A stretch of DNA of 57,056 nucleotides, from assembly GCA_022511205.1 (NCBI GenBank), contig JAFLRY010000009.1:1-57056 (forward strand), written 5' to 3'. The notes under the pieces were generated by a model. That model searched no databases. It was not told where the DNA came from and saw only the letters and a program-made list of their open reading frames with translations. Position 1 is the stretch's first letter. Each line of letters starts with the position of its first letter. Origin of the DNA: Eubacterium sp. (GTDB taxonomy: Bacteria; Bacillota; Clostridia; Oscillospirales; Acutalibacteraceae). Of the stretch, positions 6,700 to 14,174 are shown one piece after another. The translations under genes and the position numbers were made by a program.

Positions 6700-7506
6700 A
6701 TGCAACAGTTCATAGATTATCTTGATCACGCATTGCCTGATGATTACGGCAACAAAATTTTGTATAAGTTTAAAAGAAAGCTCCTTGATGAGATGAACGC
6801 AAGATACCTTGAGGTTTCCCGCCGCGGTATCACCAATCAAAAGGTCATAACCGATCTTATCATCAGCGAACACGCTGATATCAAGGCGGAATACAGAAAA
6901 TACAGCAGCGAAATAATGGCTAAAAAGAGAGCGAAAAACCGCGTTATTATCAGAATAATCGGCTCTGCTGTTTACCTCGTGGGCTTGCTGATAGTGTTCC
7001 TTTTGGTTAGTATTCCTACGGAAGCATGGGGTCGCACCTGGGTAATTCCCGTTGACGGACTTCTTCTCTGGATATGTTATCTGCTCACCCTCGGTGTAGC
7101 CAAAATAACGTCATTTAAGAAAATATTCCATATTTTCGCCAGAATACTTTTGGGATTTGACGTTATGCTCTTTTTCGTGGCGGCGTTTCTTTTGGTATTC
7201 GGCGCTTTCAGAATATCGATCGGCTGGGTGCTGATTATTATGGGAGTGGCCGCTGTGCTGATAGCAGATAGCGCTTACATCCATTTCACAAAGGTAAGAT
7301 TTGCCATAATCAATTATCTTATCTACATTCCGATCATCGCAACGATGTTTTACATTATTCTCTCTGCGATGCATATCCTTTCGTGGGGTACGGGCTGGCT
7401 GTTGATAATCATGTCCTTATTTGTGGACGTTATATTCATGTACGCATCGGCGCTGAGAAACAGACGTTATAAACAGGAGGTAATCGATACATGGCAAGAA
7501 AATTAA
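6700..7506 (+). CDS. Polytopic membrane protein of unknown function with an N-terminal helical prefix
   Basis: A 268-residue protein. Residues 1-75 are soluble and helical (DHALPDDYGNKILYKFKRKL then RGITNQKVITDLIISEH), resembling the HAAS or permease-prefix domains of Firmicute membrane proteins. About six hydrophobic segments follow from residue 85 to 255. GGAGG precedes the ATG. It overlaps the next gene by 16 bases, so the two are almost certainly co-translated. No catalytic motif seen. It could be the membrane partner or acceptor-supplying protein for the acyltransferase-like product downstream. Function not assigned. Confidence 0.75.
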   Translation: MQQFIDYLDHALPDDYGNKILYKFKRKLLDEMNARYLEVSRRGITNQKVITDLIISEHADIKAEYRKYSSEIMAKKRAKNRVIIRIIGSAVYLVGLLIVFLLVSIPTEAWGRTWVIPVDGLLLWICYLLTLGVAKITSFKKIFHIFARILLGFDVMLFFVAAFLLVFGAFRISIGWVLIIMGVAAVLIADSAYIHFTKVRFAIINYLIYIPIIATMFYIILSAMHILSWGTGWLLIIMSLFVDVIFMYASALRNRRYKQEVIDTWQEN

Positions 7507-8789
7507 ATGCTGAGCTTTGGGACAAAATGCATTATCTCTTCCGTGATTATAACGACAGAATGGTGCATGTTGAGCTCAGATATGATTTTGAGATCGATAT
7601 TGAAGCCCTTAAAACAGTGCTTGTTTGCTTCCTTGAAAAAGCCCCCGTGCTTCATTCTTCTTTCACCGATAACAGGATCTCTCCTTATTGGACTGTTAAG
7701 GATTACAGGATTGAGGACGTACTTACCGTTAAGGACGTAACCGAGGAGGCGCTGGACGAAGAGATAAACAATTTCCTCATTCAGTATATCCCGCCCGATG
7801 CCGATCTGCAGATCCACGTGGCTGTGTTCAGGCATAGCGGCAAATCGGTTTTGTGCGTTGTTGAAAATCATATGTGTATGGACGGCGGCGACCTGAAATA
7901 CTTTATGAAAACCCTTTGCCAAAACTACAACGATTACGTTCAAAAGGGGATAAGCCCCGTTTCTCTCAGAACGGGAACACGCTCCTACGAATCCGTTTAC
8001 GAGGATTTCTCCGCCGGTGAAAAGCGAATGGCGAAGAATCTTTACAAGAATATCAATTCTAAGGATAATCACGGCTTTCCGTTTACGCCCAACAGTATTC
8101 AGGATAAGTCCTTTATCGCTAAGAGAAAGATCCCCGCATCTAAGTTTGACGAGATCCGCGCTGTCGGTAAGAAATACGGCGCAACGATAAATGAGATGCT
8201 TCTCACTGCTTATTTCTATTCGCTTTATGAGCTTGCGGGCTTTGATAACAATGAAAGCGTTTCGATCTCTTGTGCTATCGATCTCAGAAGGCATATCAAG
8301 CAGGAGCGCGATCAGGGCATAACGAATCACACGGCTTGGATGCAGTGCAAAGTTCCCCAGCGCGGAGCGGATATTTTTGAAACCCTCAACTACGTTGTTT
8401 ATTCCTCAAACCTATTTAAAGAGGATAAATTTATGGGGCTTCACGGTCTGCCGCTTCTCTCATTTGGCTATAAGATAATGCCTCTTGCCGCCTCGGAGGA
8501 GGTTATCAAGATCGGCTACGCCAACCCGCTTTTGGCGATGAGCAATATCGGCATCCTTGAGGTGGATAAGCTTGCGCTTGACGGGCATGAGCCCACTGAC
8601 GGCTTTATGAGCGGCGCGGTCAAGTATAAGCCCTACGCGCTTTTATCCGTAACTTCTGTCAGAAAAGAGCTTACTATCTCAATGTGCTGCCGCGGAAACG
8701 CGGAGGACAAGAAGATCGTTGACCGTTTCTTTGATCTTATCGTTAAAAACATCGACGATCTCACCGCAGAGGCAAAACTTTATATGTAA
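7491..8789 (+). CDS. Condensation-domain-like / alcohol acetyltransferase-type CoA-dependent acyltransferase
   Basis: A 432-residue protein with the fold signature of the chloramphenicol acetyltransferase/NRPS-condensation/WS-DGAT superfamily. The central HxxxDG motif reads HMCMDGGDLKYF near residue 126, and a later SISCAIDLRR segment with a downstream AMSNIG block matches the second half of the fold. No carrier-protein, adenylation or signal segment is attached, so it is a free-standing cytosolic enzyme. AACAGGAGGT precedes the start, which lies inside the membrane-protein gene. Such proteins transfer acyl groups to alcohols or amines; substrate unknown. It is followed by a bidirectional terminator at 8812. 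Confidence 0.75.
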   Translation: MARKLNAELWDKMHYLFRDYNDRMVHVELRYDFEIDIEALKTVLVCFLEKAPVLHSSFTDNRISPYWTVKDYRIEDVLTVKDVTEEALDEEINNFLIQYIPPDADLQIHVAVFRHSGKSVLCVVENHMCMDGGDLKYFMKTLCQNYNDYVQKGISPVSLRTGTRSYESVYEDFSAGEKRMAKNLYKNINSKDNHGFPFTPNSIQDKSFIAKRKIPASKFDEIRAVGKKYGATINEMLLTAYFYSLYELAGFDNNESVSISCAIDLRRHIKQERDQGITNHTAWMQCKVPQRGADIFETLNYVVYSSNLFKEDKFMGLHGLPLLSFGYKIMPLAASEEVIKIGYANPLLAMSNIGILEVDKLALDGHEPTDGFMSGAVKYKPYALLSVTSVRKELTISMCCRGNAEDKKIVDRFFDLIVKNIDDLTAEAKLYM

Positions 8790-8811
8790 AGGCGAATAGC
8801 TTTACGCAACG

Positions 8812-8847
8812 AAAAACGCTCCGTTAGATATCTAACGGAGCGTTTTT
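8812..8847. terminator. Bidirectional terminator between convergent genes
   Basis: A perfect 36-bp palindrome (half AAAAACGCTCCGTTAGAT) with A and T tracts on its two sides. It can end both the acyltransferase transcript and the leftward ribbon-helix-helix transcript. Confidence 0.92.
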
Positions 8848-8860
8848 TGCTTTTTCGGTT

Positions 8861-9055
8861 TTAATCTGCTTCAACCTCGCAGTTTTCAATAGCGTAATTC
8901 AGCAGAATATTTATCAGCTCATTTCTTGAGCGGTTTGTTTTTTTAGACAGTTCCTCGAGATCGTTAACGGTTTCTTCTTTTATCCTAACGGAAAAGGTTT
9001 TATAACCGTCGTCTCCGCGAAGATTCTTTTTAGAGATAACAAGCTTTTCGTCCAT
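8861..9055 (-). CDS. Ribbon-helix-helix (CopG/Arc-type) DNA-binding protein
   Basis: A 64-residue protein. The beta strand is KTFSVRI, followed by two helices, KEETVNDLEELSKKTNR and SRNELINILLNYAIEN, the standard RHH dimer fold of CopG- and MetJ-like repressors and many antitoxins. Start at 9055 is chosen because GAGGTGA precedes this ATG; a GTG at 9064 lies within the ribosome-binding site. No toxin gene is adjacent. Its divergent neighbour is a zinc-ribbon membrane protein, and the intergenic space carries four copies of a TGTTAT/ATAACA motif, the probable binding sites. Autorepressor plus repressor of the divergent operon is the inference. Confidence 0.8.
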   Translation of the reverse strand: MDEKLVISKKNLRGDDGYKTFSVRIKEETVNDLEELSKKTNRSRNELINILLNYAIENCEVEAD

Positions 9056-9082
9056 TTTATTCACCTCATCTATATTCTATCT

Positions 9083-9132
9083 TGACAGGTGTTATAAACA
9101 TATGTTATGATTAATAACATAAAATATAACAT
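9083..9132 (+). promoter_or_regulatory. Consensus promoter buried in a four-fold operator array (RHH target)
   Basis: TTGACA (9083-9088), a 17-base spacer and TATGAT (9106-9111) form a near-perfect promoter for the gene at 9156. TGTTAT at 9090-9095 and 9103-9108 and ATAACA at 9114-9119 and 9126-9131 repeat every 11-13 bases across the spacer, -10 box and start region. Short repeats about one helical turn apart are how ribbon-helix-helix dimers bind cooperatively. Confidence 0.7.
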
Positions 9133-9155
9133 ATAGAATGAAAAGGAGAATAAAT

Positions 9156-9551
9156 ATGTTCTGTTCAAAATGCGGAAACGAAATTAACGATGAAGCGGTA
9201 ATTTGCCCGAATTGCGGTTGCCCAACGCCAAATTATAACAAACCCCAAGAGCCTGCCGTTCAGCCGAATTATGCGCCGTATTATCAGCCGGTATATCAAC
9301 AAAAACCAATTACGGAATTAATATCAAGCGCGCGTTCTCTTGGTATCATATCAATAATTGTTGGCTTATTTATTCCGCTTGTCGGCTGGGTTTGCGGCGG
9401 TATCGGCATTTCTAAAGCAAATAAAATATATGCTCCTCCCGAATTTACCGATGATGTCAAAAACGCAAAAATACTGAATTTAATCGGGCTTGTCTTAAGT
9501 ACTTGCGTATTTTTTATCGCTTTTGTCGTTATTATGGGATTGTGGTATTAA
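9156..9551 (+). CDS. Small zinc-ribbon membrane protein
   Basis: A 131-residue protein with an N-terminal zinc ribbon (CSKCGNEI..., CPNCGCP; a CxxC pair at residues 3-6 and another about 15 residues later). A Pro/Tyr/Gln-rich linker (residues 27-55) leads to two hydrophobic segments, at about 65-90 and 108-130. The ATG at 9156 is preceded by AAAAGGAGAAT; an in-frame ATG at 9138 sits on the ribosome-binding site. The next gene begins 12 bases downstream and carries the same zinc-ribbon type. Function unknown; such proteins are common in Firmicutes and uncharacterised. AT-rich compared with flanking housekeeping genes. Confidence 0.75.
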   Translation: MFCSKCGNEINDEAVICPNCGCPTPNYNKPQEPAVQPNYAPYYQPVYQQKPITELISSARSLGIISIIVGLFIPLVGWVCGGIGISKANKIYAPPEFTDDVKNAKILNLIGLVLSTCVFFIAFVVIMGLWY

Positions 9552-9563
9552 GGAGGATATTTT

Positions 9564-10382
9564 GTGTATTGCACGAATTGCGGAAAAGAAATATTTGATG
9601 AAGCTGATATTTGCACAAACTGCGGTTGTAAAACTGAAAACTATAAAGAAACACTTGATATTGCCGTATCTCCAAGTAAAACCTCGTTTATTCAGAAAGT
9701 TTTGGATAACGTACGCTCAGAACCGAAAAAAATGTTTATTATGCGATTATCTGCGACTATACTTTTTTTGATTACGGCGTTATATAATTTGTATTCTTTA
9801 TATGAATTTTTAGATTTATATGGGTTTATGCGTTATGGGGATGGATGGGAATATCTTATAAAAAATATTTCTATTTATGTAGTCCGCATTTTCATTTCGG
9901 CGTTATCTGTATTTCTTTTGAATATAAAACAAAATAAAGTTGTCTTATTGCTCGTTTCATTCTATTTTTGCATTTATTCAATATACTCCGGATATGTTTT
10001 AGTGAATAATTTAAAATATTTTGCGGAAATTAATTATTTCGATAAAGATTTAAATCTTGAAATTAGCCGAACATATTGGGTGTCTCCAACATTGCAGATA
10101 GTCGTTTTGCTTTCATTAGCTGTTATTATAGTGCTTATAAAACAAAACATAATTAAAAAGAAAGTAATACCTTTTGCTGTACTTTTAGGCTATATCATTA
10201 TTTTTCAATGCTACTTGTTTTCTCAGTCAGGCGAGCTTATCTCCTTAAGTTGGTTATTCATATACGAGCCGCTTGTTGCTTCTTGTTTAGCTTGCCATTA
10301 CTATATCAGTGCAAATAAATACAAAAAGGAAGCTGCGGAAAATGAAATTTCGCAACAAGCACCAATTATAATTCAAGAGTAA
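9564..10382 (+). CDS. Zinc-ribbon polytopic membrane protein, GTG start
   Basis: A 272-residue protein. Residues 1-25 repeat the zinc ribbon of the upstream gene (MYCTNCGKEI, then CTNCGC), showing domain duplication. About six hydrophobic segments follow from residue 50 to 255, and the C-terminus is short and charged. AGGAGG at 9551-9556 selects the GTG at 9564. Composition is strongly AT-rich, with many AAA/TTT codons unlike glyA or ilvD, which fits recent acquisition. Co-transcribed with the gene at 9156 under the RHH-controlled promoter. Function unknown. Confidence 0.72.
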   Translation: MYCTNCGKEIFDEADICTNCGCKTENYKETLDIAVSPSKTSFIQKVLDNVRSEPKKMFIMRLSATILFLITALYNLYSLYEFLDLYGFMRYGDGWEYLIKNISIYVVRIFISALSVFLLNIKQNKVVLLLVSFYFCIYSIYSGYVLVNNLKYFAEINYFDKDLNLEISRTYWVSPTLQIVVLLSLAVIIVLIKQNIIKKKVIPFAVLLGYIIIFQCYLFSQSGELISLSWLFIYEPLVASCLACHYYISANKYKKEAAENEISQQAPIIIQE

Positions 10383-10403
10383 TTGGATGAAAGGAAGATA
10401 TAT

Positions 10404-10565
10404 ATGCAGGAGTATATGGGAACGAAAGAGGCGTCAGAGAAATGGGATATGCCTCAATGGAAAGTGCAGAAATTATGCAGGGAGAAGAAAATACCCGGCG
10501 CTGAGCAGGACGCTTACGGCAGTCCGTGGAGAATACCGATTGATGCCGTTTCGCCAAAATCATAA
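10404..10565 (+). CDS. Small excisionase-like helix-turn-helix protein
   Basis: A 53-residue protein matching the MerR/excisionase-type HTH found in many small bacterial DNA-binding proteins: GTKEASEKWDMPQWKVQKLC forms the helix-turn-helix, and KKIPGAEQDAYGSPWRIPIDA the wing. Start at 10404 follows AAAGGAAG; an upstream TTG at 10383 abuts the previous stop and has no site. It begins 21 bases after the zinc-ribbon gene. No integrase or relaxase is nearby, so an excisionase role is not supported; it may be an accessory regulator of this island. Confidence 0.6.
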   Translation: MQEYMGTKEASEKWDMPQWKVQKLCREKKIPGAEQDAYGSPWRIPIDAVSPKS

Positions 10566-10584
10566 TCAAATTATATAAAAACAA

Positions 10585-10612
10585 ATCCGCCGACGGATAT
10601 CTGTCGGCGGAT
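10585..10612. terminator. Hairpin with a U-tract on the minus-strand side
   Basis: ATCCGCCGAC (10585-10594) pairs with GTCGGCGGAT (10603-10612) around an 8-base loop. On the plus strand there is no T-run after it, but on the minus strand it is followed by TTGTTTTTAT. It would therefore work best as a terminator for leftward transcription, for example the antisense RNA of the adjacent peptide locus. Confidence 0.6.
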
Positions 10613-10619
10613 CGTTATC

Positions 10620-10648
10620 TTGACAATAATTGACAAAAACTTTATAAT
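10620..10648 (+). promoter_or_regulatory. Perfect-consensus promoter of the small-peptide gene
   Basis: TTGACA (10620-10625), exactly 17 bases, TATAAT (10643-10648): both hexamers match consensus fully. Predicted start about 10654-10656. It drives a transcript of roughly 180 bases that ends at the hairpin at 10793-10833. Confidence 0.85.
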
Positions 10649-10655
10649 GGATTAT

Positions 10656-10716
10656 GCGGATAAGGGGCGTTTGTACTATAAACGCCGGGCGGTTAAATCC
10701 TGCCCCTGAAAGGGGG
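10656..10716 (+). other. Structured 5' leader that can sequester the ribosome-binding site
   Basis: Three hairpins can be drawn: GGCGTTT with AAACGCC (about 10666-10686), GGGCGG with CCTGCCC (about 10687-10705), and GCCCC-TGAA-AGGGGGC (about 10702-10717). The second and third share the GCCCC strand and are mutually exclusive. The third hides the AGGGGG Shine-Dalgarno. This is the arrangement of translationally gated small-toxin mRNAs. Confidence 0.5.
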
Positions 10717-10723
10717 CATGCCT

Positions 10724-10798
10724 ATGGAACTCTTTGCATTTATCATTTTAACTTTGATAGTTGCTACCGGGTACATACTGGCGGTAAAAGGAAAGTAG
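10724..10798 (+). CDS. 24-residue single-pass membrane peptide, candidate type I toxin
   Basis: A very short gene: MELF, then a continuous hydrophobic stretch (AFIILTLIVATGYILAV), then the basic end KGK. This is the size and layout of membrane-acting type I toxins (Fst, TxpA, Ibs, Ldr types), but I do not recognise it as a member of a named family. AGGGGG at 10711-10716 is 7 bases upstream of the ATG at 10724; an in-frame ATG at 10718 is too close to that site. It has a perfect promoter, a structured leader and its own terminator, and a possible antisense RNA faces it from the right. Toxicity is inference. Confidence 0.6.
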   Translation: MELFAFIILTLIVATGYILAVKGK

Positions 10799-10833
10799 TC
10801 GCCTAACTCCCATAAGGCGACTACTTCGTTTTT
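10793..10833. terminator. Terminator of the peptide gene, shared by convergent RNA
   Basis: AAGTAGTCGCCT (10793-10804) pairs with AGGCGACTACTT (10815-10826) around a 10-base loop, followed by CGTTTTTG on the plus strand. On the minus strand the same stem is followed by TCCTTTTA, so it can also act leftward. The stem begins at the stop codon of the peptide gene. Confidence 0.85.
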
Positions 10834-10889
10834 GATTTAGTTACTTTTGTTAGGGGCTAAACCGCTTGGTTTATAGGAGCTCCTTATCT
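10793..10889 (-). ncRNA. Putative convergent antisense RNA to the peptide mRNA
   Basis: A minus-strand promoter (TTGACA, 17 bases, TAACAT at 10924-10896) would start an RNA near 10889 running left into the 3' end of the peptide gene. No start codon with a ribosome-binding site lies in it. Its first 45 bases share four blocks in order with the leader of the peptide mRNA: GCRGATAAGGRGC, CTATAAAC, GCGGTT and GCCCCTRA. It may stop at 10793 or run to the hairpin at 10585. Not demonstrated as an RNA; readthrough from yebC is an alternative source. Confidence 0.5.
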
Positions 10890-10895
10890 GCTTTT

Positions 10896-10924
10896 ATGTT
10901 AGCACATATTTCCCGATTTGTCAA
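10896..10924 (-). promoter_or_regulatory. Promoter of the putative antisense RNA
   Basis: Reading leftward: TTGACA (10924-10919), 17 bases, TAACAT (10901-10896). The -35 hexamer is fully consensus. It faces the peptide promoter across about 250 bases. Confidence 0.6.
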
Positions 10925-10952
10925 CAGCGCTCGTTTAGATCGCTGTTTTTTT
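10923..10952 (+). terminator. Second rightward terminator-like hairpin
   Basis: AACAGCG (10923-10929) pairs with CGCTGTT (10941-10947), followed by a run of T. It would stop rightward transcription before it enters yebC antisense. Its left arm overlaps the -35 box of the antisense promoter. Confidence 0.6.
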
Positions 10953-10994
10953 GTTGATAAATATAGGCGGGAGGGAGAGGAAGCTGCTAATGCT

Positions 10995-11738
10995 TTAGCC
11001 CTCGTAGTCGTTTTCATTTTCCCAGTTGTGCCAGATGTTCTGAACGTCGTCGTTTTCCTCAAACATTTCGATCATTCTGCTCATCTTCATCATATCCTCC
11101 TGGCTTTCAAGGCGGGTGTAGGTGGAGGGGATATACGCAGGTTCGCTGGAAATGGTCTTATAGCCCTTTGCTTCAAGCTCGTCGCGGATCGCGCCAACGT
11201 CATTCGCATCCGTTCTGATTTCAAACACGTCCTCATCCTCCGCAATGAAATCGGTTGCGCCCGCTTCGATCGCCTCCATCATAAGCTCTTCCTCGTCCAC
11301 GTCCTCTTTTTCAACGAGGATAACGCCCTCGCGGGAGAACATAAAGGTAACAGAGCCGGAAGTGCCCATATTTCCGCCTGCCTTATCAAAATAATGCCTT
11401 ACTTCGCCGGCGGTCCTGTTTCTGTTATCGGTCAGAGCCTCAACTATAACGGCAACGCCGCTGGGGCCGTAGCCCTCGTAAACGATCTCCTCGTAATCCG
11501 CGCCGCCTGTTTCGCCCGCCGCCTTTTTAAGCATGCGCTCGATATTATCGTTGGGAACGTTATTCTGCTTCGCCTTGGCGATTACGTCCTTCAGCTTTGA
11601 ATTGACGTTAGGATCGGGGCCTCCGTTTTTAACTGCAACGGCAAGCTCTCTGCCGATCTTGGTGAAAACCTTTGCTCTTGCCGCGTCGTTAGCTCCTTTT
11701 TTTCTTTTAATTGTACTCCATTTTGAATGTCCGCTCAT
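10995..11738 (-). CDS. yebC: YebC/PmpR-family protein (TACO1-like)
   Basis: A 247-residue member of the YebC/TACO1 family, variously described as transcription regulators and, more recently, as ribosome-associated factors that help translate difficult sequences. The hallmark N-terminus MSGHSKWSTIKRKKGA is present, followed by DPNVNSKLKDVIAKAK, the YEGYGPSGVAVIVE block and TAGEVRHYFDKAGGNMG. Length is normal (240-250). The ATG at 11738 is preceded by GGAAGCG and gives the exact family start; a longer in-frame extension is rejected. It runs opposite to its neighbours and has its own promoter at 11770-11798. No strong leftward terminator follows the gene. Confidence 0.95.
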   Translation of the reverse strand: MSGHSKWSTIKRKKGANDAARAKVFTKIGRELAVAVKNGGPDPNVNSKLKDVIAKAKQNNVPNDNIERMLKKAAGETGGADYEEIVYEGYGPSGVAVIVEALTDNRNRTAGEVRHYFDKAGGNMGTSGSVTFMFSREGVILVEKEDVDEEELMMEAIEAGATDFIAEDEDVFEIRTDANDVGAIRDELEAKGYKTISSEPAYIPSTYTRLESQEDMMKMSRMIEMFEENDDVQNIWHNWENENDYEG

Positions 11739-11769
11739 AAAAACGCTTCCTTTTAAAAAATCTGCAATA

Positions 11770-11798
11770 ATTCTATCACATAAGTTTTTCCCTTTCAA
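11770..11798 (-). promoter_or_regulatory. Promoter for yebC
   Basis: Reading leftward: TTGAAA (11798-11793), 17 bases, TAGAAT (11775-11770), with the yebC start codon 31 bases further left. Confidence 0.7.
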
Positions 11799-11827
11799 GA
11801 GAAAAAAGGGCTTCACAAATGAAAATT

Positions 11828-11855
11828 TTGTGATATATTGTTATATAAATATAAT
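11828..11855 (+). promoter_or_regulatory. Promoter for the orphan anchored protein
   Basis: TTGTGA (11828-11833), 16 bases, TATAAT (11850-11855), about 50 bases before the start codon at 11906. Confidence 0.5.
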
Positions 11856-11905
11856 TTTAACTATTTTAAGGTATTCTGTAAATAGTATAAACAGGAGGCG
11901 AGCTG

Positions 11906-12748
11906 ATGAAAAAAGCAATAATAATCTGCTCGGTAATTGCTGTAATTGCCGTTGCGGGCGTGGCGGTGTTAACGGCGAGCGGATTAATTCTTTCGGGAAC
12001 GAAAATACCGTCTGTAAGCAAATCGGCAACAATAGCTCAGGTGGCGGATTTCTATGCCGACGTGGTTGAGCTGACGAAAAACGAAAAGAATATGAAAATA
12101 GAGACTGTTACTACGATAACATTCAAGGATTTTGACTGCCCTAACGAAACCCTCAGTGAAATAATTCTGGAGTATCTCGGCTATGAGGTGGGAGACCGTG
12201 AGACGAAAATGGCTGTCTATTCTTTTGAAAACGGCGTGGACAGTACCGGCGTTACTCCATTGTACGTGATCCAGCCGGCAGGCGCGTATATCGAAAAGGG
12301 AAATTACGCGGGTCTTACTCTTAACTCCGTTGAAAAAGATAAGGAGCATACCGCCGTTTCCTTCAATATTGCGGAGGAAAGCGCCGATTATACTGAGATC
12401 GTTGAGGCTTTCAATAGTGAGAACAGCGATTTTTCCGCTTTGGCGCCACGCCATTTCGATTATATAGACGTTGAGGGGATCGTGCTTTATCTTAAGGATA
12501 TGATCAACGTGAACTTTTCCTCAAACGACGCTGAAAACGCCATTGCCGAAATTGAAAGCGCGCGGATCAGTCTCGGAAAAACCGAAATAAAAGCAGACGT
12601 AAATTCAAAGGCTTTGCTCACGGAAATGACTGTTACCGCTCCCGTAGTTTTTGACGGAACGGTCAGAGTGATAAACGGCAATATCGGTATCGCGGCAAGG
12701 CTTGAGGTTTCTCAGCATTACGTTTTTACCTATATAGAAGAAAAATAA
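11906..12748 (+). CDS. Membrane-anchored or secreted protein of unknown function
   Basis: A 280-residue protein. The N-terminus is a signal sequence or signal anchor (MKKAIIICSVIAVIAVAGVAVLTASG, described here in parts: a KK pair followed by about 22 hydrophobic residues) without a lipobox cysteine. The remaining 245 residues look like an extracytoplasmic beta-rich domain with few cysteines. ACAGGAGG precedes the ATG. It is monocistronic, with its own promoter and a terminator at 12757. I do not recognise a domain. Confidence 0.7.
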   Translation: MKKAIIICSVIAVIAVAGVAVLTASGLILSGTKIPSVSKSATIAQVADFYADVVELTKNEKNMKIETVTTITFKDFDCPNETLSEIILEYLGYEVGDRETKMAVYSFENGVDSTGVTPLYVIQPAGAYIEKGNYAGLTLNSVEKDKEHTAVSFNIAEESADYTEIVEAFNSENSDFSALAPRHFDYIDVEGIVLYLKDMINVNFSSNDAENAIAEIESARISLGKTEIKADVNSKALLTEMTVTAPVVFDGTVRVINGNIGIAARLEVSQHYVFTYIEEK

Positions 12749-12878: not shown

Positions 12879-14132
12879 ATGTATTCCGATTACTATGATT
12901 CAATAGCCAAGGTTGCCGAAACGGATAAAGAGGTAGCAGACGCGATGTCGCTGGAGCTTAAGCGTCAGCGTGAGAACATTGAGCTTATTGCCTCCGAAAA
13001 CCTCGTTTCTCCGCAGGTTATGGCGGCTATGGGAAGCGTACTTACCAATAAATATGCCGAGGGTCTGCCAAGCAAGCGCTACTACGGCGGCTGTCAGTAC
13101 GTTGATATCGTTGAGAATATTGCGATAAAAAGAGCATGTGAGCTTTTCGGCGCTAACTACGCCAACGTTCAGCCCCATTCCGGCGCTCAGGCGAACATTG
13201 CGGCTTACGTTGCCCTGCTTAATCCCGGCGATACCGTTATGGGTATGAGCCTTGATAACGGCGGACATCTTACCCACGGTTCTCCCGCCAATATCAGCGG
13301 AAAGTATTTCAATTTCGTTCCGTATGGTATCAATGACGACGGATATATCGATTTAAAGGAATTCGAAAAGCAGGTCAATAAGGTTAAACCCAAGCTCGTT
13401 GTTGCGGGCGCATCGGCTTATCCCCGTGAAATAGATTTCAAAACCATGGCCGATATTGCCCACGCCAACGGCGCAATGTTTATGGTGGATATGGCTCATA
13501 TTGCCGGTCTCGTTGCGGCAGGCCTTCATCAAAGCCCCGTTCCTTATGCGGACGTAGTGACTACCACCACCCACAAGACCCTGAGGGGTCCGAGAGGCGG
13601 ACTTATCCTTTGCAACAACGAATATCTTGCTAAAAAGCTGAATTCGGCAGTGTTCCCCGGCACACAGGGCGGCCCTCTCATGCACGTTATCGCCGGTAAG
13701 GCTGTTTGCTTCGGTGAGGCGCTGAAGCCGGAATTCAAGGAATATCAGCAGAGAATTATTGATAACGCCCAGGCGCTTGCAAAGGGACTTATCAACAGAG
13801 GTCTCAACCTCGTTTCCGGCGGAACGGATAACCATCTCGTTCTCCTTTCCCTTGTGGGAACAGGCGTAACCGGCAAGGAGCTTGAGGCAAAGCTTGATGA
13901 GGTGCATATCACCCTCAACAAAAATACCGTGCCAAACGAACCCCTTTCACCCTTCGTTACGTCAGGCGTTCGTATCGGCACGCCCGCCGCTACTACGAGA
14001 GGTCTTAACGAGGCTGATTTCGATAAGATCTCAGAATTCATCTATCTTGCGATAACCGATTTTGAGGGCAAGAGAGAATATATTGAAAAGGGCGTTGCGG
14101 AGATTTTGGCGCAATATCCGCTTTATGAATAA
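12879..14132 (+). CDS. glyA: Serine hydroxymethyltransferase GlyA
   Basis: A 417-residue PLP enzyme interconverting serine and glycine with transfer of a one-carbon unit to tetrahydrofolate; the main cellular source of C1 units, supplying among others thyA in this window. The PLP lysine is K233 in [14 protein letters not shown]. Other signatures are the [10 protein letters not shown] block, [15 protein letters not shown] and QPHSGAQAN. Full length. Monocistronic by promoter and spacing, although 42 bases to the next gene leaves readthrough possible. Confidence 0.98.
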
Positions 14133-14174
14133 TATTTTGCATAATTAAAACAGCAAGCAAAGGAAGTGAGAACG

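Follow-up and report, generated by a model that had tools for sequence, protein, structure and literature searches.

The window, a stretch of 57,056 nucleotides from an uncultured gut Clostridia bacterium (Eubacterium sp.), contains a cassette of approximately 370 bases with an open reading frame (ORF) for a tiny hydrophobic peptide and, facing it, a predicted small RNA (Table 1). We call these the toxin and antitoxin sides, respectively. To the right of the cassette lies a minus-strand gene (10995-11816) that we take to be yebC from its protein sequence. An earlier note, made from the letters of this DNA, had claimed facing promoters, a Shine-Dalgarno (SD) sequence that can be hidden in a hairpin, a 24-residue hydrophobic peptide, and a terminator that begins at the stop codon of the peptide. 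All four features were located. Both promoters are in place on opposite strands, the ORF is confirmed, and in the predicted fold the GGGGG of the SD pairs with CCCCU at 10703-10707. A repeat search returned the terminator arms as 10786-10804 and 10815-10833, an inverted repeat that overlaps the stop codon. Because this terminator is common to both strands, the two predicted RNAs would be complementary at their 3′ ends. An antisense overlap with the toxin mRNA would follow from two predicted elements, the antitoxin promoter and the common terminator, both of which are conserved.

Table 1. Features of the cassette, with positions in the window.
Feature	Position	Strand	Basis or remark
Hairpin and T run outside the toxin promoter	10585-10612		Terminator-like on both strands
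Toxin-side promoter, TTGACA-17-TATAAT	10620-10648	+	12/12 consensus match
Toxin mRNA leader: block GCGGATAAGGGGC, hairpin GGCGTTTGTA/TATAAACGCC, GGCGGTT element	10655-10723	+	Homologs aligned
GCCCC block (10702-10706) able to hide the SD AGGGGG (10711-10716)	10702-10716	+	Predicted fold
ORF of 24-amino acid hydrophobic peptide MELFAFIILTLIVATGYILAVKGK, class A (ATGYI)	10724-10798	+	ORF call; frame conserved
Two-way terminator over the stop codon	10786-10833	Both	Inverted repeat; RNAs mutually complementary here
Predicted antitoxin RNA	10787-10890	-	Start from −10 box, end from terminator; R1 match 10853-10924
Antitoxin leader, resembling the toxin leader	10848-10891	-	GCAGATAAGGAGC..CTATAAACC..GCGGTTTAGCCCCTAA
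Antitoxin-side promoter, TTGACA-17-TAACAT, TG before −10	10924-10896	-	10/12 match; conserved in homologs
Hairpin and T run outside the antitoxin promoter	about 10925-10952	+	Terminator-like on + strand

The start of the toxin mRNA was placed from the position of the −10 box. Tandem TTGACA boxes (10620-10639), ten bases apart, lie upstream of this single −10 box. A promoter scan of 9500-12200 returned 11 promoter-like sites, against 6.4 (standard deviation, 2.7) in shuffles, so the case for the antitoxin-side promoter is its conservation in homologs and not the scan. The outer hairpins that flank both promoters account for the limits of 10585 and 10952 given in the earlier note. For antitoxin promoters of related loci, an outer hairpin was present in 37 of 191 cases, compared with 6 of 513 at random positions; for toxin promoters, the figures were only 6 of 80 and 6 of 207, respectively. 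Toxin promoters seldom have an outer hairpin, so framing by such hairpins is not a general property of these loci.

The cassette is not fixed beside yebC. In one genome (G005), the counterpart of the window gene at 7491-8789 adjoins yebC (judged by eye), so a stretch of approximately 2.1 kb that contains the cassette is missing in G005. By inspection, this segment (8790-10990) also holds two small ORFs, one RHH-like (8861-9064) and one HTH-like, together with two membrane ORFs that resemble zinc ribbons. The yebC region was present in 11 relatives of the same genus; none of them had both leader motifs upstream, and three showed a loose match to one motif.

A family of related loci

In the genus search of 80 genomes, blastn found relatives of the locus in 12, the window's own genome counted. 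Beyond the window copy, that genome has a second class A copy, its decayed neighbor, and one class B copy. The decayed module (L003/L035; own-genome contig C13, approximately 14079-14152) lies beside the intact L002 and retains the antitoxin half and the terminator, with the toxin cut down to C-terminal codons. At E 0.001, the genus search with a sequence model of the antitoxin promoter and leader (R1) gave matches in 45 of 80 genomes; one of these, G058, of the window's genus, had 13 matches. In the family search, R1 matched 81 of 398 genomes, from 48 of 135 genera; 12 candidates were scored per genome, and a count of 12 is thus a lower bound. These breadth figures exclude a second model, R2, which was a poor searcher (at E 1e-4, 1 of 398 phylum genomes and 7 of 295 order genomes).

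An exact promoter-plus-core pattern found 101 stretches among 84,980 species (one genome each). Among the 80 matches listed of these 101, most are from Clostridia, Oscillospiraceae, Ruminococcus, Lachnospiraceae, and Butyrivibrio, and the matches listed include two from Selenomonadaceae/Anaerovibrio and two named 'bacterium' only. Carriers include Butyrivibrio sp. INlla21 and Lachnospiraceae bacterium G11. Two more of the matches listed come from one bin titled Bacteroides sp. (NALB_7961_8; modules L084 and L130), where transfer, contamination, or mislabeling are all possible. The exact pattern matched one viral contig. Searches by blastn found no match among plasmids with the window locus and L071, and none among phages with the window locus only. 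Rfam gave no match in the window at the gathering score and seven sub-threshold matches in 10500-11000 at up to E 10.

The peptide frame is conserved. Among class A genes (n = 21; 111 pairs that are 60 to 97% identical), differences fall on the three codon positions as 723/345/1032, a pattern that fits a protein-coding frame whose second positions are kept hydrophobic. The earlier note had chosen frame conservation in relatives beforehand as a test on which its reading could fail, and the reading came through it. The peptides themselves are diverse. We found the antitoxin core (A)CCGATAGACGGTT opposite at least three peptide classes: class A (ATGYI...KK type), to which the window peptide belongs, class B (MEYATIITLVLIVALVLAIKK type), and class C (MVTYEELFLFGTLLVSIIALVVELTKKK type). 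In one genome (G368), classes A and C lie beneath near-identical leaders. Three of the eight longer peptides tested passed the 23.3-bit cut-off of Hol_Tox (PF16935), with scores of 27.9, 29.2, and 33.8; a fourth scored 14.0, under that cut-off, and some longer peptides had sub-cut-off matches to the type I toxin PepG1. The window peptide falls into no Pfam family, Hol_Tox included. Searches of Pfam, PHROGs, and NCBIfam with class A and B peptides gave nothing at cut-off (best E 0.015), and a by-sequence search of the PDB with the peptides gave no match.

The two leaders and the peptide occur together. By script, 129 of 158 antitoxin leaders lie opposite a hydrophobic ORF and 105 of 112 toxin leaders lie opposite an antitoxin leader, in sets for which most loci were retrieved via the antitoxin leader and from which contig-end sites (12 antitoxin and 6 toxin) had been set aside. 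One of the 29 antitoxin leaders scored as having no peptide (L004, + strand) is actually a toxin leader; among the seven toxin leaders scored as having no antitoxin, L004 does have one and the other six are without an ORF. When only the toxin leader was used as the query, which removes the bias of antitoxin-first retrieval, the search found 36 sites in 18 of 300 genomes, against 1 site for a reversed-pattern control. Thirty of the 36 were fetched. Removal of L190 (no member) and of L195 and L207 (contig ends) left 27 that could be evaluated. A peptide and a facing antitoxin leader were present at 24 of these 27; some of the 24 are close relatives (for example, L214 and L219), and four (L203, two in L204, and L216) were judged by eye because the script missed diverged antitoxin leaders. 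By both counts, the right-hand leader is found together with the left-hand one, and the reading of the earlier note came through this second test as well.

Within the diverged group of L203, L204, and L216, both leaders carry AAGGGTACTG in L204 and L216. At one toxin-first site (L201), the class A peptide is intact and no antitoxin can be seen. Antitoxins without a peptide (29 of 158, one of them wrongly scored) are commoner than intact peptides without an antitoxin (1 of 27). At L198 (genome G337), the toxin leader is interrupted by an insert with TAGGGTGACGGGTATAATC-like inverted ends; L218 (genome G264) is rearranged, with a similar CCGTCACCCT stretch at the break.

Likeness and pairing of the two leaders

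The two leaders of the window are alike and not complementary. Their same-sense local alignment scores 39, against a mean of 18.0 and a maximum of 36 in 10,000 dinucleotide shuffles (p = 1e-4), whereas the same shuffle test applied to complementarity gave an ordinary score (p = 0.74). In the repeat search of the window, the leader pair appears as an inverted repeat only (10656-10668/10879-10891), and inverted likeness at the locus is confined to the leaders. These results bear out the claim that the leaders share blocks in the same order and form an imperfect inverted repeat. The shared blocks are clearer in relatives (AAGG..ACC .. CGG..T..CC), and the window's copy is a diverged member of the family.

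We compared leaders across loci using 79 leader pairs that had passed filters for a toxin-core motif, for promoter score, and for an ORF. Leaders of at least 10 nt were present in 76 pairs, and 64 distinct pairs, among which related loci persist, were used for the duplex, block, Mantel, and codon-position tests. The A blocks of toxin and antitoxin leaders score 9.03 when partners are matched and 5.30 against the partners of other loci; the partial Mantel correlation for leader likeness given peptide similarity was 0.52, and the largest of 2,000 permutations was 0.12. For 35 loci from 8 genomes, likeness averaged 5.1 between genomes and 7.8 when antitoxins were permuted within genomes; true partners scored 8.3 (p = 6e-4). 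Of the 37 loci fetched for this test, 13 were left out because no toxin leader was recognized in them, and three of the rows that were used (L227, L233, and L252) look mis-assigned. Leader likeness is largely lineage- or genome-wide, and the part specific to a locus is smaller.

The antitoxin leader is a covarying hairpin with a 5′ arm (A), a loop, and a CC-rich 3′ arm (B). We found 69.5% of cells paired, against at most 45.5% with slid partners, and a covariation of 0.207, against 0.157 in shuffles (reached by 0 of 500) and at most 0.152 when slid; the sequences are related, and the structure tested was named from the same sequences. Pairs with both sides changed were not raised (7 versus 6.6 shuffled, reached by 309 of 500). 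RNAalifold returned no structure for the first 17 antitoxins; the hairpin emerged with the wider set.

Particular blocks fit their own partners better than those of other loci. Among the 64 loci, cognate preference was observed for antitoxin A × B (z = −6.0), toxin B × SD (z = −4.4), toxin A × antitoxin B (z = −3.2), and antitoxin B × toxin SD (z = −3.1, p = 0.0016). No cognate preference was observed for toxin A × B, antitoxin A × toxin B, or toxin A × SD, and the first of these results does not support an antitoxin-like hairpin in the toxin leader. Duplex energies showed no preference either, whether for the whole leader (−22.98 cognate versus −23.00 non-cognate) or the SD region (−15.15 versus −15.10); duplexes with shuffled antitoxins were weaker (−20.7 and −13.6, respectively).

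Among the 79 selected pairs, the leader cores differ consistently. The toxin-leader hexamer xGCGGy (GGCGGU) can pair around its own stop codon and terminator region in 75 of 79 loci, and the antitoxin hexamer can pair around the stop in 2 of 79. At L009, both sides of this pairing are changed (GGCGGC with GCCGCC). An additional hairpin, AGAGGGC..GCCCTCT, is present in many toxin leaders of class B and in some of class A (L018, L005, L007, and others); it lies between block B and the SD and may act as a second switch.

Discussion

The locus shares its general layout with par/Fst (pAD1 RNA I/RNA II) and the Fst/Ldr family, for which the relevant sections of PMC7472228 give convergent promoters, a common two-way terminator, a small hydrophobic peptide, and a 5′ structure that hides the SD; at our locus, this last element is a predicted fold. 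The par RNAs are described as complementary at DRa/DRb, and Fst peptides as carrying PXXXG (excerpts of PMC7472228 and PMC4147584). In contrast, the window leaders are alike and have no complementary repeats of the DRa/DRb type (p = 0.74), and the window peptide has no proline and matches no Pfam family. Furthermore, par interaction sites are characterized as poorly conserved in the same part of PMC7472228, whereas here the antitoxin core recurs across genera. By the features tested, this locus is not Fst/par, and the earlier note's judgment that leaders of this kind, alike and not complementary, are out of the ordinary stands up against par/fst as portrayed there.

Convergent RNAs that overlap at their 3′ ends are also described for txpA/RatA, bsrG, and Hol_Tox-type systems (passages of PMC6563280 and PMC4147584), and some peptides of our family are Hol_Tox by Pfam. 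The window peptide misses Hol_Tox; the locus is set apart from txpA/RatA and bsrG by its peptide and not by a comparison of leaders. The type I modules of Clostridioides difficile (CD2517.1-RCd8 and others) are likewise clostridial pairs of convergent peptide and antisense genes. Their toxins are given as 34 to 59 amino acids and their RNAs as overlapping over a long stretch, and the portions of PMC6563280 devoted to them mention no shared leader; it is by this description that we set them apart. Within the portion of the open-licence literature covered (preprints excluded), we found no account of this leader pair.

We consider it likely that the locus is a convergent type I toxin-antitoxin module of an apparently undescribed family. 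The Hol_Tox peptides encoded in the same architecture lend weight to the type I reading put forward in the earlier note. The module as a whole is further favored by the sub-cut-off PepG1 matches, the joint occurrence of both leaders, peptide, and terminator, the codon-position pattern, the covariation of the antitoxin hairpin, the cognate block preferences, the stop pairing of GGCGGU, and the excess of antitoxins without a peptide over intact peptides without an antitoxin. Against it stand the duplex energies, which do not distinguish cognate from non-cognate leaders, the block pairs that showed no cognate preference, the ordinary number of pairs with both sides changed, the lone peptide of L201, and the negative toxin-family searches with class A and B peptides. 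The toxin mRNA would be kept inert by pairing of block B with the SD and by GGCGGU, which would link the two ends of the mRNA. First contact of the antitoxin RNA with the toxin mRNA would be made at the complementary terminator stem-loops, after which the B arm of the antitoxin would cover the toxin SD in trans. If the antitoxin were lost, the peptide would be made and would act on the membrane.

On this reading, the antitoxin hairpin would bear a copy of the toxin's anti-Shine-Dalgarno block, which would explain why the leaders are alike. They would serve as a handle common within a genome, above peptides and terminators that vary, and specificity among modules probably lies in the terminator. 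A further step is to take such mimicry as a principle of regulation, with a transplanted anti-Shine-Dalgarno block in the antitoxin and a single lineage-specific handle that would occur on both strands and above unrelated peptides; modules of one genome may then cross-talk as a network, and toxin cassettes may be exchanged beneath constant leaders. We regard this further step as possible, if doubtful, and hold it a little more loosely because the block tests did not support a toxin A × B hairpin. A rival answer, which we would not favor on even terms, is that the likeness in a type I module has no role and arose by inverted duplication of promoter and leader followed by gene conversion. Consistent with this, likeness is mostly per genome, across loci, strands, and peptide classes (5.1, 7.8, and 8.3), and whole-leader duplexes show no cognate preference. 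However, the cores differ constantly while the flanking blocks agree (stop pairing in 75 of 79 versus 2 of 79, among pairs chosen by toxin-core motif, from which gene-converted cores could have escaped), the antitoxin hairpin covaries, and the fit of antitoxin B to the SD is better at its own locus than at others.

We think it improbable that the peptide is no toxin but an innocuous small membrane protein tuned by antisense RNA. In favor of such a protein, no toxin family is matched by peptides of class A or B, and many copies are tolerated in one genome (13 in G058), yet Hol_Tox peptides occur in the same architecture, and decayed toxin halves lie next to kept antitoxins. Least credible, and very improbable, is a miniature inverted-repeat mobile element with promoters in its ends by chance and an incidental ORF: the locus is multi-copy, has inverted-repeat ends, and is not fixed beside yebC, but peptide classes differ within a genome while frame and SD are kept, codon positions are biased, and inverted likeness is found only in the leaders.

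In rumen and gut Clostridia, genes of 21 to 36 codons are readily missed by annotation, and the RNA signature described here, a hairpin CCG-AUAGA-CGG behind a sigma-70-type promoter, offers a means to find type I-like modules with very different peptides there. How leaders that are alike, and not complementary, could regulate one another can now be tested, as can the way in which paralogous modules within one genome retain specificity. The recurrence of one design with several peptides suggests a family of RNA-controlled toxin switches.
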